DNA of 36,207 bases from Patescibacteria group bacterium (GTDB lineage Bacteria; Patescibacteriota; Minisyncoccia; Minisyncoccales; PEYH01): positions 1 to 36,207 of the forward strand of contig JAHITK010000011.1 in NCBI GenBank assembly GCA_018817645.1, in the 5' to 3' direction. Positions 1,014 through 16,584 of this stretch are shown here, in pieces; the first letter of the stretch is position 1, and each line of letters starts with the position of its first letter. The position numbers were made by a program, and so were the translations under genes. The notes beneath the pieces were generated by a model. It was not told where the DNA came from. It worked only from the letters and a program-made list of their open reading frames with translations, and did no database searches.

Positions 1014-1045
1014 ATTGCCCTATTTTAACATTTTGTTTCTGTAAA

Positions 1046-1080
1046 GCAAAAATCTGTTGGAAAACCCAACAGATTTTTGC
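1046..1080 (-). terminator. Terminator of the tRNA cluster (15-bp perfect stem)
   Basis: GCAAAAATCTGTTGG (1046-1060) pairs perfectly with CCAACAGATTTTTGC (1066-1080) around a 5-nt loop. U-rich arms on both sides make it potentially bidirectional. It lies 18 nt past tRNA-Asp and 33 nt before tmk. Confidence 0.65.
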
Positions 1081-1097
1081 GAAAATGATAATTTATG

Positions 1098-1173
1098 CGC
1101 GGGCGATGGGATTTGAACCCACGATCTCTGCCGTGACAGGGCAGCGCTTTGAACCGGACTGAGCTACGCCCGC
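1098..1173 (-). tRNA. tRNA-Asp (anticodon GTC)
   Basis: The acceptor stem is GCGGGCG/CGCCCGC. The anticodon arm CTGCC-CTGTCAC-GGCAG gives GTC, the T arm is canonical (GGGTTCAAATCCC), and discriminator G is at 1098 as expected for Asp. The D stem is slightly weak (GCTC against AAGC). CCA is not encoded: the sequence after the discriminator reads CATAAAT. It is the last gene of a minus-strand tRNA cluster with a terminator right after. Confidence 0.92.
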
Positions 1174-1188
1174 ATATTCTTTTTTTTA

Positions 1189-1262
1189 TGCCGGTGGAGG
1201 GATTTGAACCCCCGACACAAGGATTATGATTCCTCTGCTCTTGACCACTGAGCTACACCGGC
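1189..1262 (-). tRNA. tRNA with CAT anticodon (elongator Met, or Ile read after lysidine modification)
   Basis: The acceptor is GCCGGTG/CACCGGC with discriminator A. The D arm is GCTC-AGTGGTCAA-GAGC, the anticodon arm GAGGA-ATCATAA-TCCTT gives CAT, and the T loop is normal (TTCAAAT). It is not the initiator: the 1-72 pair is Watson-Crick and the anticodon stem lacks the run of G-C pairs. Elongator Met and tRNA-Ile2 share this anticodon and cannot be told apart safely by eye. CCA is not encoded. Confidence 0.88.
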
Positions 1263-1362
1263 CGGCTACAACAATACAAAACATGTCGCGGGGCCTGGAA
1301 TTGCACCAGGGTCTGGGGCTTCTGTTATACTTCTTGTTTCCAAGAAGAATGGACTATACCAT

Positions 1363-1467
1363 CCCCGCCCTCTATGCCTGCTGAATATTTAATTCGGTAA
1401 TTCAATCCTATTAAGAATTGAGAATTGAAAACTAAATTAATTTATTCCGCGAGCTTAGAGGGCGGGG
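1363..1467. repeat. GC-clamped palindromic element, copy 1 (forms intron P8)
   Basis: CCCCGCCCTCTA (1363-1374) is the exact reverse complement of TAGAGGGCGGGG (1456-1467). The interior of about 80 nt is AT-rich. It forms the P8 helix of the group I intron. Copies 2 and 3 have the same arms and a similar length. Confidence 0.6.
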
Positions 1468-1491
1468 TTCCCATTATAGTCTCTGAACCTT

Positions 1492-13795: not shown

Positions 13796-15289
13796 ATGAC
13801 TAAGCGCTTTAAGAAAATCCTATTTTTCTCAATCTGCGGCCTGTTTATTATAGTCACGCCGATTGTTATTTTATACGCTTCCGGGTATCGTTTTGATTTT
13901 GATAATATGAGGATTGTCCAAACCGGCGGACTTTTCTTTAAAATTTCCCCTCCCGGCGTTATGGTATATATGAATGATGAACCCTATAAAAAAACAAGCT
14001 TCTTTTTTGACACTGCTCTGATAAGCGGTCTTCTGCCAAAGAGCTATCAAATCTCAATCCAAAAGAACGATTACCATTCTTGGGAAAAAGAGCTTGCGGT
14101 GGAGGAAAAAATGGTCACAGAAGCGAAAAGTATCGTTCTCTTTCCGAAAAATCCCCTGTTTAATCTTGCTTTTAAAAATATTGAAGCCCTTTTCCCGGCG
14201 CCAGACGAAAAGAAAGCGGTGGTGGAAATCGCCGCTGACAAAGGGTGGTCATTCGCTTCTTTTGATTGCCAAAACCAAAAACAGGAGCAGATATTGGCTG
14301 AAAGCGACTTGCAAATCCTTGAATCAGACAATGCCCCGGCAATAACCCAAAAAATCTCCGGCACAGAACCCACCAACATTATCTGGTCCAGCGATTCCAA
14401 GAGAATCCTAATTGAGCTTGATAAAAAAGGAGAAAAACAATATTTGGCGACAGAGCCCTCTCCCAACAAAGGTCTTTTCGTGATTGATCGGGACAATAAA
14501 ATCAAAAAGATCAGCTTCAATCCCAATAATTCCGAGGAGATATTTTTCCTTTCCTCTGCCCCGACAGCCAGCGCCGCAAAAACCAACAGCGCCTCCAAAA
14601 CAGCCGAATCCCTGTCCGCAATTTTTATTATCAGAGGCAATGGCGAGGAAACTGCCCTTGATTTCTCAGACCCTTCATTAAAGCAAAATGTTTTGGCTTA
14701 CGCAATTATTGACAATTATCTTGTCTGGCTAAGCGAGTCGGGCCTGATTTATAAAGGAACTATCAATGGAGACAAAATATCCCTCACCGAGATATTAAAT
14801 GTAAGGCCGATGACTATAAAGGCCTCTGCCAATTACCAGATTTTGTCCAAGGGCCTGTCAAATATTTTACTGAAAGAAGACGAGGGGCTTTATCGCCTTA
14901 ATCCTGAAAAACGCCTCTTGGAAAAAATCTTTGATTCGGCAAAAGAAATCATCTTTGCCAAAGATATGAAAAAAATCGCGGTTAATGCCGGAAACCAAAT
15001 CTGGCTCTATTATCTTGAGGAAGAAAAAAACCAGCCCCAAAGAAACAAAGAAGAAAAACTGCTGCTTTACAGCTCTCCCCAAGAAATTACAAACCTGTAT
15101 TGGCTGAATAACCACTATTTGATATTCCGGGTCAATGAATCAATCAAAATCACGGAAATTGACAACCGCTGCAAGCCGAATTTGCTTGAGCTGACCACTT
15201 TCCCCAACCTCGCCATATTCTGGCTCTCCAACAAACTCTTTGTTTTAAGCAATAATAATCTCTTTTTTAGCGAGGATGTCGTGAAATAA
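13796..15289 (+). CDS. Membrane-anchored PEGA-domain protein
   Basis: 497 aa, the only plus-strand protein gene here. An N-terminal anchor lies at about residues 7-28 (ILFFSICGLFIIVTPIVILY). A PEGA-type beta domain follows near 40-115 (GGLFFKISPPGVMVYMNDEP and LPKSYQISIQKNDYHSWEKEL). The remaining 380 residues carry repeated strands such as NIIWSSDSKRILIELD, LYWLNNHYLIFRV and LPNLAIFWLSNKLFVL, resembling a TolB-like propeller. It probably faces outside the membrane. PEGA proteins with propellers are frequent in Patescibacteria; the function is unknown. It is divergent from murA and ends in its own terminator, so it is a single-gene unit. Confidence 0.75.
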   Translation: MTKRFKKILFFSICGLFIIVTPIVILYASGYRFDFDNMRIVQTGGLFFKISPPGVMVYMNDEPYKKTSFFFDTALISGLLPKSYQISIQKNDYHSWEKELAVEEKMVTEAKSIVLFPKNPLFNLAFKNIEALFPAPDEKKAVVEIAADKGWSFASFDCQNQKQEQILAESDLQILESDNAPAITQKISGTEPTNIIWSSDSKRILIELDKKGEKQYLATEPSPNKGLFVIDRDNKIKKISFNPNNSEEIFFLSSAPTASAAKTNSASKTAESLSAIFIIRGNGEETALDFSDPSLKQNVLAYAIIDNYLVWLSESGLIYKGTINGDKISLTEILNVRPMTIKASANYQILSKGLSNILLKEDEGLYRLNPEKRLLEKIFDSAKEIIFAKDMKKIAVNAGNQIWLYYLEEEKNQPQRNKEEKLLLYSSPQEITNLYWLNNHYLIFRVNESIKITEIDNRCKPNLLELTTFPNLAIFWLSNKLFVLSNNNLFFSEDVVK

Positions 15290-15319
15290 TCTTTCTGAAT
15301 ATAAATTTTTCCAGAACAC

Positions 15320-15346
15320 AAAACGCGCCTAAGGCGGGTTTTATTG
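15320..15346 (+). terminator. Terminator of the PEGA protein gene
   Basis: AAAAC-G-CGCC-TAA-GGCG-G-GTTTTATT: a stem with one G-G mismatch followed by TTTTATT, about 30 nt past the stop on the plus strand. Confidence 0.55.
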
Positions 15347-15361
15347 TTGAAATTAACAGTT

Positions 15362-15397
15362 GAAAAAATAAAGCCCCGACAATGGTGTTGTCTGGGG
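15362..15397 (-). terminator. Terminator of the candidate ncRNA
   Basis: The minus strand reads CCCC-A-GACAA-CACCA-TTG TC-GGGG followed by CTTTATTTTTTC: a 9-bp stem with one bulged base and a good U-tract. Confidence 0.65.
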
Positions 15398-15636
15398 TGG
15401 AACGAAGGAGGGGCTGAAGCGACCACCAGCTCCCGAGCGACAAACAAGAGCTCGCAGAGCGATGCAGTTCGCAACAACTACCGCAGCGCCCCTCCTCGTT
15501 CCCGGCGGACCGAACCCCCTTTCGTGAGTATCTCGCTCACGACGAGGCCCTGGTACAACCTGGCGTCCGCAGAACAGAGAGGATGCCAGAATAAAATTAC
15601 TCTTAATAAGAATAACCTTATTCTGGAATCCTTCTA
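15362..15636 (-). ncRNA. Candidate structured non-coding RNA of unknown family (about 275 nt)
   Basis: This GC-rich gap between two converging genes holds a complete minus-strand transcription unit: a promoter at 15670-15643 and a terminator at 15397-15362. Strong helices in between: GGATTCCAGAATAA with TTATTCTGGCATCC at the 5' end (one mismatch); GCGGAC with GTCCGC around a TCGTGAG/CTCACGA hairpin; and a long helix GGAACGAGGAGGGGC with GCCCCTCCTTCGTTCC (one bulge) that closes a multi-hairpin domain. No frame is a convincing protein. I compared it by eye with tmRNA, SRP RNA, RNase P RNA and 6S RNA and found none of their conserved core strings. Position just after rpsI is noted; the role is unknown. 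Confidence 0.6.
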
Positions 15637-15642
15637 TTTTGT

Positions 15643-15670
15643 ATTTTAATCAAATATCAAATCTTGTCAA
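15643..15670 (-). promoter_or_regulatory. Near-consensus promoter of the candidate ncRNA
   Basis: TTGACA (15670-15665, 6 of 6) and TAAAAT (15648-15643, 5 of 6) with a 16-nt spacer. Transcription would begin near 15636. It starts 8 nt after the rpsI stop codon, so the RNA can be made independently of the ribosomal operon. Confidence 0.65.
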
Positions 15671-15677
15671 GGGGATT

Positions 15678-16214
15678 TTACCTCTTTGACCATTGCGGAC
15701 CGCGCCTGGCTCTTTTTAAGCCAAACTTCTTTCTTTCCCGCATTCTCGGGTCGCGCGTCAAAAATCCCGCTTTTTTAAGGCGCTTCCTGAAATCAGGATT
15801 AAATTTTATGAGCGCCCGGGAAAGGCCGTGCCTCACGGCCTCTGCCTGCGCATTTTTCCCTCCTCCTCTGACTTTGATGGAAATATTGAATTTATCCAAG
15901 CAGTTCATCATCTCAAGGGCTGATAAAACGGTTCTTTGCAGACCCGGGCTTGGAAAATATCCTTTAAAATCTTTACTATTAACCAAAATTTCTGCCTTGT
16001 CTTTCGCGAGAAAAAGGCGCACTCTGGCAATGGCGGTTTTTCTTCGGCCAACCGCTGGGATGTATTTTTCTCCGGCTGCTTTCTTTTTGGCCGGCGGGGC
16101 TAAAACCGCTGTCTTGCTTTCTTTTTTCGGCGCTCTCTTCTTTACCGGCGCCTTGGCGGCCGGCGCTGGTTTTTTTGCTGTCTTCTTGACTGTTGTTTCT
16201 TTTTTCTTAGGCAT
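15678..16214 (-). CDS. rpsI: 30S ribosomal protein S9 (uS9) with basic N-terminal extension
   Basis: 178 aa from ATG 16214 (MPKKKETTVKKTAKK); a longer frame would need a TTG start. The first 45 residues are Lys/Ala/Pro-rich, much like a histone-tail linker, and are extra compared with the usual 130 aa. The S9 core begins at YIPAVGRRKTAIARVRLF. The C-terminus RKFGLKRARRGPQWSKR is the tail that reaches the P-site tRNA, ending in the expected K-R. It follows rplM by 19 nt, the universal L13-S9 pair. Confidence 0.95.
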   Translation of the reverse strand: MPKKKETTVKKTAKKPAPAAKAPVKKRAPKKESKTAVLAPPAKKKAAGEKYIPAVGRRKTAIARVRLFLAKDKAEILVNSKDFKGYFPSPGLQRTVLSALEMMNCLDKFNISIKVRGGGKNAQAEAVRHGLSRALIKFNPDFRKRLKKAGFLTRDPRMRERKKFGLKRARRGPQWSKR

Positions 16215-16233
16215 AATATTTACCAGGATTGTA

Positions 16234-16584
16234 TTAAAGCTCAACTTTTAACCGCTTTATCTGCTGGGCCCTTAATTTATTTTTCGGCAGCATTCCCAGC
16301 ACCGCCCTTTTCATTACTTGAACCGGGTCTTCCGCGTAGACCTTAGATAAAGGAATCTCTTTCAATCCGCTCGGATAACCGGAGTACCGGTAATAATCCT
16401 TTTTCTCTAATTTCTTGCCGGTGAACTTCACCTTTCCAAAATTAGTGATGACGACAAAATCGCCAATATCTTTATTAGGGGCAAAATCTTCCTTATTCTT
16501 CCCGCGCAGAAGAGCGATTGCCTCGCTCGCCACTCTCCCTAAGGATTTTCCAGCCGCATCAATTGTATGTGTCTGCCTTTCCAT
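16234..16584 (-). CDS. rplM: 50S ribosomal protein L13 (uL13)
   Basis: 116 aa from ATG 16584 (MERQTHTIDAAGKSLGRVAS). Family marks: IDAAGKSLGRVASEAIALLRGKN at the start and the YYRYSGYPSGLKEIPLSKV region. MKRAVLGMLPKNKLRAQQIKRLKV is the conserved end. It is about 25 residues shorter than the E. coli protein, mainly at the C-terminus, as usual in reduced genomes. The gap to rplQ is 117 nt. Confidence 0.95.
   Translation of the reverse strand: MERQTHTIDAAGKSLGRVASEAIALLRGKNKEDFAPNKDIGDFVVITNFGKVKFTGKKLEKKDYYRYSGYPSGLKEIPLSKVYAEDPVQVMKRAVLGMLPKNKLRAQQIKRLKVEL

Follow-up and report, generated by a model that had tools for sequence, protein, structure and literature searches.

Introduction

Small RNAs that derive from 3' UTRs and have an internal promoter start immediately downstream of an operon's final ORF, and transcription reading through from the operon can also produce them. 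6S RNA (RF00013) is a stand-alone, highly structured RNA that forms one rod with a central bubble and keeps its shape more than its sequence; it is a ligand of sigma-70 RNA polymerase and the template of pRNA. The stand-alone bacterial sRNA genes of GC-rich intergenic regions have their own promoter, an intrinsic terminator and a strong fold, and occupy a GC-rich gap in an AT-rich genome with no ORF (PMC8632094). Our search of the open literature gave little on the regulatory RNAs of Parcubacteria and no paper that describes such RNAs in this group.

Here, we analyzed a window of 36,207 nucleotides (the whole stretch of DNA examined) from a Parcubacteria genome, G000. A region behind rpsI had been described, in a sequence-only reading, as a stand-alone structured RNA of unknown family. 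Our results agree with this description: the region has no Rfam match, a syntenic ortholog in a second species (G002) and compensatory changes in its helices, and we consider it very probably a real RNA gene. With the sRNA genes of GC-rich gaps it shares the promoter, the intrinsic terminator, the strong fold, the GC-rich gap in an AT-rich genome and the lack of an ORF; unlike them, it belongs to no Rfam family, has two members in one Parcubacteria genus, and changes in sequence much faster than the RNase P RNA and tmRNA of the same genomes. It resembles 6S RNA in standing alone, in being highly structured and in keeping shape more than sequence, but it has several hairpins instead of a single rod with a central bubble, is not matched by Rfam and is missing in sister species. 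Like the 3' UTR-derived sRNAs, it starts directly behind rpsI and may share operon read-through; unlike them, it has long helices beyond the terminator, is absent from the orthologous operons of the sisters and has no known target. As an intergenic structured non-coding RNA gene, the RNA is of a known kind, and its family is new and unclassified. The earlier suggestion of a new RNA class goes too far for what is so far a two-member, genus-restricted family.

Results

The unit carries its own promoter and terminator

The features of the locus are collected in Table 1. We confirmed the near-perfect promoter claimed for the unit: TTGACA and TAAAAT, spaced by 16 nt, match the consensus at 11 of 12 positions. 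It is the sole promoter-like site detected between positions 15200 and 15900, where 0.6 such sites are expected in shuffled sequences, and the TTGACAAG -35 region and 16 nt spacing are kept in the G002 ortholog. Inspection of the sequence between rpsI and this promoter revealed no terminator. At the other end, the clean terminator proposed earlier is present as the P4 stem with one bulged A (CCCC-A-GACAA-CACCA-TTGTC-GGGG), followed by CTTTATTTTTTC. P4 is missing from the automatic terminator listing of the region, probably because the bulged A interrupts the stem. The second hairpin further downstream is, from comparison of the sites, apparently an ancestral terminator common to both converging genes; its counterpart lies directly 3' of rpsI in sisters without the RNA.

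Table 1 Coordinates of the RNA unit and its neighbours in the window.
Feature	Position	Strand	Basis or remark
rpsI (ribosomal protein S9), upstream neighbour	15678..16244	-	Pfam Ribosomal_S9, E 1e-42
Promoter TTGACA (15670-15665), 16 nt, TAAAAT (15648-15643)	15643..15670	-	7 nt 3' of rpsI stop
P1, AU-rich long 5' hairpin, ~30 bp, ~5 nt past -10 box	15573..15638	-	MFE fold
P2, GC-rich hairpin, outer stem GCGGAC/GUCCGC; least conserved part	15505..15570	-	Fold
P3, long hairpin, 15 bp base	15399..15502	-	Fold; compensatory changes versus G002
P4 + U-run, intrinsic terminator (15397-15374), tail (15373-15362)	15362..15397	-	Sequence; same position and form in G002
Second hairpin AACCCGCCUUAGGCGCGUUUU	15318..15347		Site comparison with G001, G003 and G004
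Converging neighbour gene, 497 aa, no Pfam match	13796..15289	+	Ortholog borders empty site in G001

This arrangement also bears on the main rival explanation, which is that the unit is an elaborate 3' UTR or terminator of the rplM-rpsI operon that protects the 3' end of the mRNA or blocks read-through into the converging gene. Such a role would suit a unit that lies between converging genes and starts only 7 nt (G000) or 4 nt (G002) after the rpsI stop, with no terminator between. We nevertheless regard it as unlikely: it leaves a strong promoter with an identical -35 region and spacing in both species without explanation, P1-P3 are unnecessary for termination, and a simple, short terminator hairpin suffices at this site in the sisters.

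The predicted transcript is strongly folded

The body of the RNA is about 275 nt long on the minus strand and is predicted to fold into four hairpins (P1-P4), the last of which is the terminator. For positions 15362-15645 (minus strand), we obtained an MFE of -129.8 kcal/mol, while shuffled sequences averaged -90.8 (z = -8.07); none of the 200 shuffles matched it. The AU-rich 5' hairpin P1 contributes much of this value, which drops to about -2.9 when P1 is left out. Among the 37 promoter-started transcripts outside long ORFs in the window, the fold is the strongest at -0.46 kcal/mol per nt (runner-up, -0.35). Long helices of 13-15 bp had been claimed for the unit; the 15 bp base of P3 agrees with this, whereas P1 exceeds it at ~30 bp. 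The P3 base pairs a purine-rich 5' arm, GGAACGAGGAGGGGC, with a pyrimidine-rich 3' arm, GCCCCUCCUUCGUUCC. Mimicry of an SD/anti-SD pairing by these arms (CCUCCUU) was considered and dropped, since the motif is not kept in G002.

One sister species has an ortholog, and others have an empty site

A good fold of a single sequence is not by itself evidence of function (PMC8250186), and we therefore sought homologs. Relatives were searched by way of rpsI, and three of them share the genus with G000 (G001, G002 and G003). One of the three, the Lake Pavin Candidatus Parcubacteria MAG G002, has an ortholog at the same site. This copy starts with CCTTGACAAG, followed by a 16 nt spacer and TAAGAT, and its P1 carries TTCCAGAATA...TATTCCGG. 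P2 and P3, the latter rich in purines, come next, then a terminator built like that of G000 and, behind it, the ancestral terminator hairpin; the fold has a z of -7.3.

In G001 and G003, rpsI is followed ~30-40 nt on by a plain hairpin and then by the same converging gene, so that the site of the RNA is empty. The site is likewise empty in G004, of a neighbouring genus, and in further relatives, and a search of 659 kb of G001 and 448 kb of G003 gave no convincing copy elsewhere. Since the RNA is absent from two sisters, it is dispensable. In a tree of G000-G004, built from rpsI, tmRNA and RNase P, support values are low (36-43); the RNA was either lost in some species or gained in others.

Empty sites in G001, G003, G004 and further relatives are the presence/absence behaviour of an insertion, and the unit contains long inverted repeats. 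One could thus read the region as inserted DNA that does nothing as RNA, for example a small palindromic mobile element or what is left of one. We find this improbable, because the unit is single, with no second copy in the G000 genome, and comparison with the empty sites by eye discerned neither a target-site duplication nor terminal repeats. Compensatory changes and a kept promoter and terminator are also not expected of a decaying insert.

Base-pair changes follow the predicted helices

Between G000 and G002, RNase P RNA is 86% identical and tmRNA 76%; whole-genome BLASTN in both directions (E<=0.001) did not link the two copies of the RNA. Part-wise alignment against shuffles gave z values of 4.4-5.0 for the promoter, P1, P3 (4.8) and P4 (4.4). 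The sequence similarity of P2 was not above that of shuffles (z -0.5), although a hairpin is still predicted there in G002. Since a MAFFT alignment of the full RNA misaligned P3, we aligned P1 and the P3 base by structure and fitted them by hand, as a pairwise comparison of two sequences only. The P1 alignment has almost no gaps, and a conserved inner stem anchors it.

In the 45 pairs of P1 and the P3 base, we counted ten two-sided changes that are still paired, eight one-sided changes and two pairs broken in one species. P1 accounts for six of the two-sided and seven of the one-sided changes and for both broken pairs (28 pairs comparable with G002), and the P3 base for four two-sided compensatory changes and no broken pair. 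When one arm was slid by 1-3 columns, 0 or 1 two-sided changes were left, compared to ten in the right register, and the fraction of paired cells fell from 97.7% to 47-57%. Random placement of the same substitutions gave P < 1e-5 for the 27 of 28 pairs retained in P1 and P ~1e-4 for the 14 of 14 in P3. Ten two-sided changes, against at most one after sliding, argue that the fold is kept by selection. Judging from the aligned copies, the loop sequences appear to be free of the selection that keeps P1, P3, the promoter and the terminator.

A comparison of the regions after rpsI had been advised in the sequence-only reading, and it thus yielded a syntenic ortholog with paired-base changes in P1 and P3, seen pairwise. 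Two properties of structured RNA genes are found at this locus, namely compensatory changes (in two sequences) and an own promoter and terminator that are conserved in G002.

The RNA is not recognized as a known family or as coding

The advised cmscan of the whole window against Rfam gave no match in the RNA region at gathering level, and at E<=10 we observed chance matches only, to miRNA and plastid models. This is in line with the earlier statement that the region lacks the cores of tmRNA, SRP RNA, RNase P RNA and 6S RNA. ARAGORN found neither a tRNA nor a tmRNA in the region, and the covariance models of tmRNA (RF00023) and RNase P RNA (RF00010) did not match it. Both genes sit elsewhere in G000: tmRNA at G000:C1:67674-68052 (E 1e-40) and RNase P RNA at G000:C10:21582-21906 (E 2e-39). 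The 6S RNA model and the SRP RNA models (RF00169, RF01854) had no match in the region or in ten genomes of the family. We also looked for the SRP domain IV motif, a GGAA-type tetraloop with an AGCA asymmetric loop, and found none in the window; direct reading of G000 sequence covered ~328 kb, window included. The 6S architecture is a single rod with pairing of the 5' and 3' ends and a large central bubble, compared to the four separate hairpins predicted here in both species.

The idea of a very divergent tmRNA, RNase P, 6S or SRP RNA, raised earlier, was not upheld, as the first two are located elsewhere and the RNA is missing from sister species. As Rfam finds neither 6S nor SRP RNA in ten genomes of the family, a divergent version of either might have escaped recognition; that it should be this RNA is very improbable. 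The RNA is absent from the searched parts of G001 (659 kb) and G003 (448 kb), whose RNase P RNA is ~90% identical to that of G000, and the lack of any Rfam trace, the lack of the SRP motif and the separate hairpins point the same way. The copies in G000 and G002 instead appear to represent a genuine lineage-restricted, fast-evolving family of two non-coding RNAs, not a divergent housekeeping RNA.

In the same ten genomes, the window's own included, tmRNA was found in 10/10, and 6S RNA and the small and large bacterial SRP RNAs in 0/10, by Rfam models. The 6S and SRP RNAs of the family are either divergent and hidden somewhere or missing. A group I intron (RF00028, 78 bits) lies at positions 1330-1750 of the window (minus strand), adjoining tRNA-Met and tRNA-Asp genes.

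The opposite strand of the RNA region has a 101 aa frame with a TTG start; the other ORFs are few and short. No ORF of at least 20 aa has a similar translation and position in the G000 and G002 copies, which supports the earlier view that the region has no sensible ORF. The unit could in principle be the mRNA of a small, fast-evolving protein, and several short GC-rich transcripts in the same genus do look coding. With no such ORF held in common and with changes that track base pairing instead of codons, we give this reading hardly any credence.

Clear matches are confined to one genus

We next ran a covariance model of the promoter and P1 over 247 genomes of the order. The only clear matches were G000 (E 1e-21) and G002 (4e-19), and none of the rest was better than 3e-6. 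These weaker matches (3e-6 and higher E-values) are promoter-plus-hairpin look-alikes: L084 is an L10 leader, L082 and L083 resemble mRNA leaders by eye, and L085 is by eye an unrelated or coding stretch. BLASTN found no full-length homolog of the RNA in phages, plasmids or 60 relatives, and a search with the G002 copy across 246 genomes of the order likewise gave none; weak matches were short (15-39 nt) and for the most part AT-rich segments of hairpins or promoters. DNA patterns of the RNA occurred in no viral contig, and among genome contigs matched only the G002 genome itself. As far as tested, the RNA thus appears confined to one Parcubacteria genus.

Similar units occur elsewhere in Parcubacteria

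We observed a few units of similar build at other places. In G080 (contig C49), the unit L081 at 1020-1340 (minus strand), itself a weak match of the promoter and P1 model, has a promoter with TTGACAAG and TAAGAT, three hairpins, a purine-rich last stem and a U-run. It is flanked by what we take to be mnmA and a 2-oxoacid oxidoreductase-like gene, and had no BLASTN match in 23 other genomes of its family. By sequence it looks like an RNA gene and is a candidate homolog only. Another candidate homolog is L038 in G005, of a neighbouring genus, at 1211-1470 (minus strand) behind rpsI, which has a fold z of -5.9 and a promoter-like start; a small ORF of helix-turn-helix type (Pfam HTH_17) lies after it. 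Further promoter-hairpins-terminator units lie upstream of priA on the minus strand in G001 (L088, 15361-15660), G003 (L164, 2951-3219) and G002 (L209, ~1501-1534). Their promoter region is conserved and their hairpins differ strongly between the three species; L088 and L164 have no Rfam match.

Discussion

The explanation that we favour, with some reserve, is a genus-restricted non-coding RNA gene of ~275 nt that has its own sigma-70-type promoter and terminator and acts via its shape. Our best guess is a stable, structure-dependent RNA that is coupled to the rplM-rpsI operon. The predicted transcript would be made alone from its own promoter, and read-through from rplM-rpsI would probably yield it as well, because no terminator separates rpsI from the RNA. 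The 5' hairpin P1 near +1 and the 3' terminator hairpin would stabilize it. Since the helices are kept and neither the loops nor P2 are conserved, the RNA most likely would act by shape and not by a conserved antisense stretch, as a double-strand-rich molecule that a protein or the ribosome binds and that is linked to the expression of ribosomal proteins. The shape-dependent binding of a partner, taken as a specific mode of action, is a tentative and somewhat doubtful part of this explanation.

On a broader and rather unlikely reading, the RNA is one member of a larger group of fast-evolving Parcubacteria orphan RNAs, constrained in shape and almost free in sequence. Each of these would combine a strong, conserved promoter with a terminator and a few long hairpins, would lie behind housekeeping genes, and would be gained or lost between close species; the units near mnmA in G080, behind rpsI in G005 and upstream of priA in G001, G002 and G003 are possible further cases. 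If true, such orphan RNAs would act as double-strand-rich molecules on a common protein or ribosome partner.

Parcubacteria genomes are very small. At the locus described here, shape, promoter and position are kept while the sequence passes beyond BLASTN detection within one genus, and surveys based on sequence would miss such genes. With the empty sites in the sister species, gain, loss and function can be tested cleanly.
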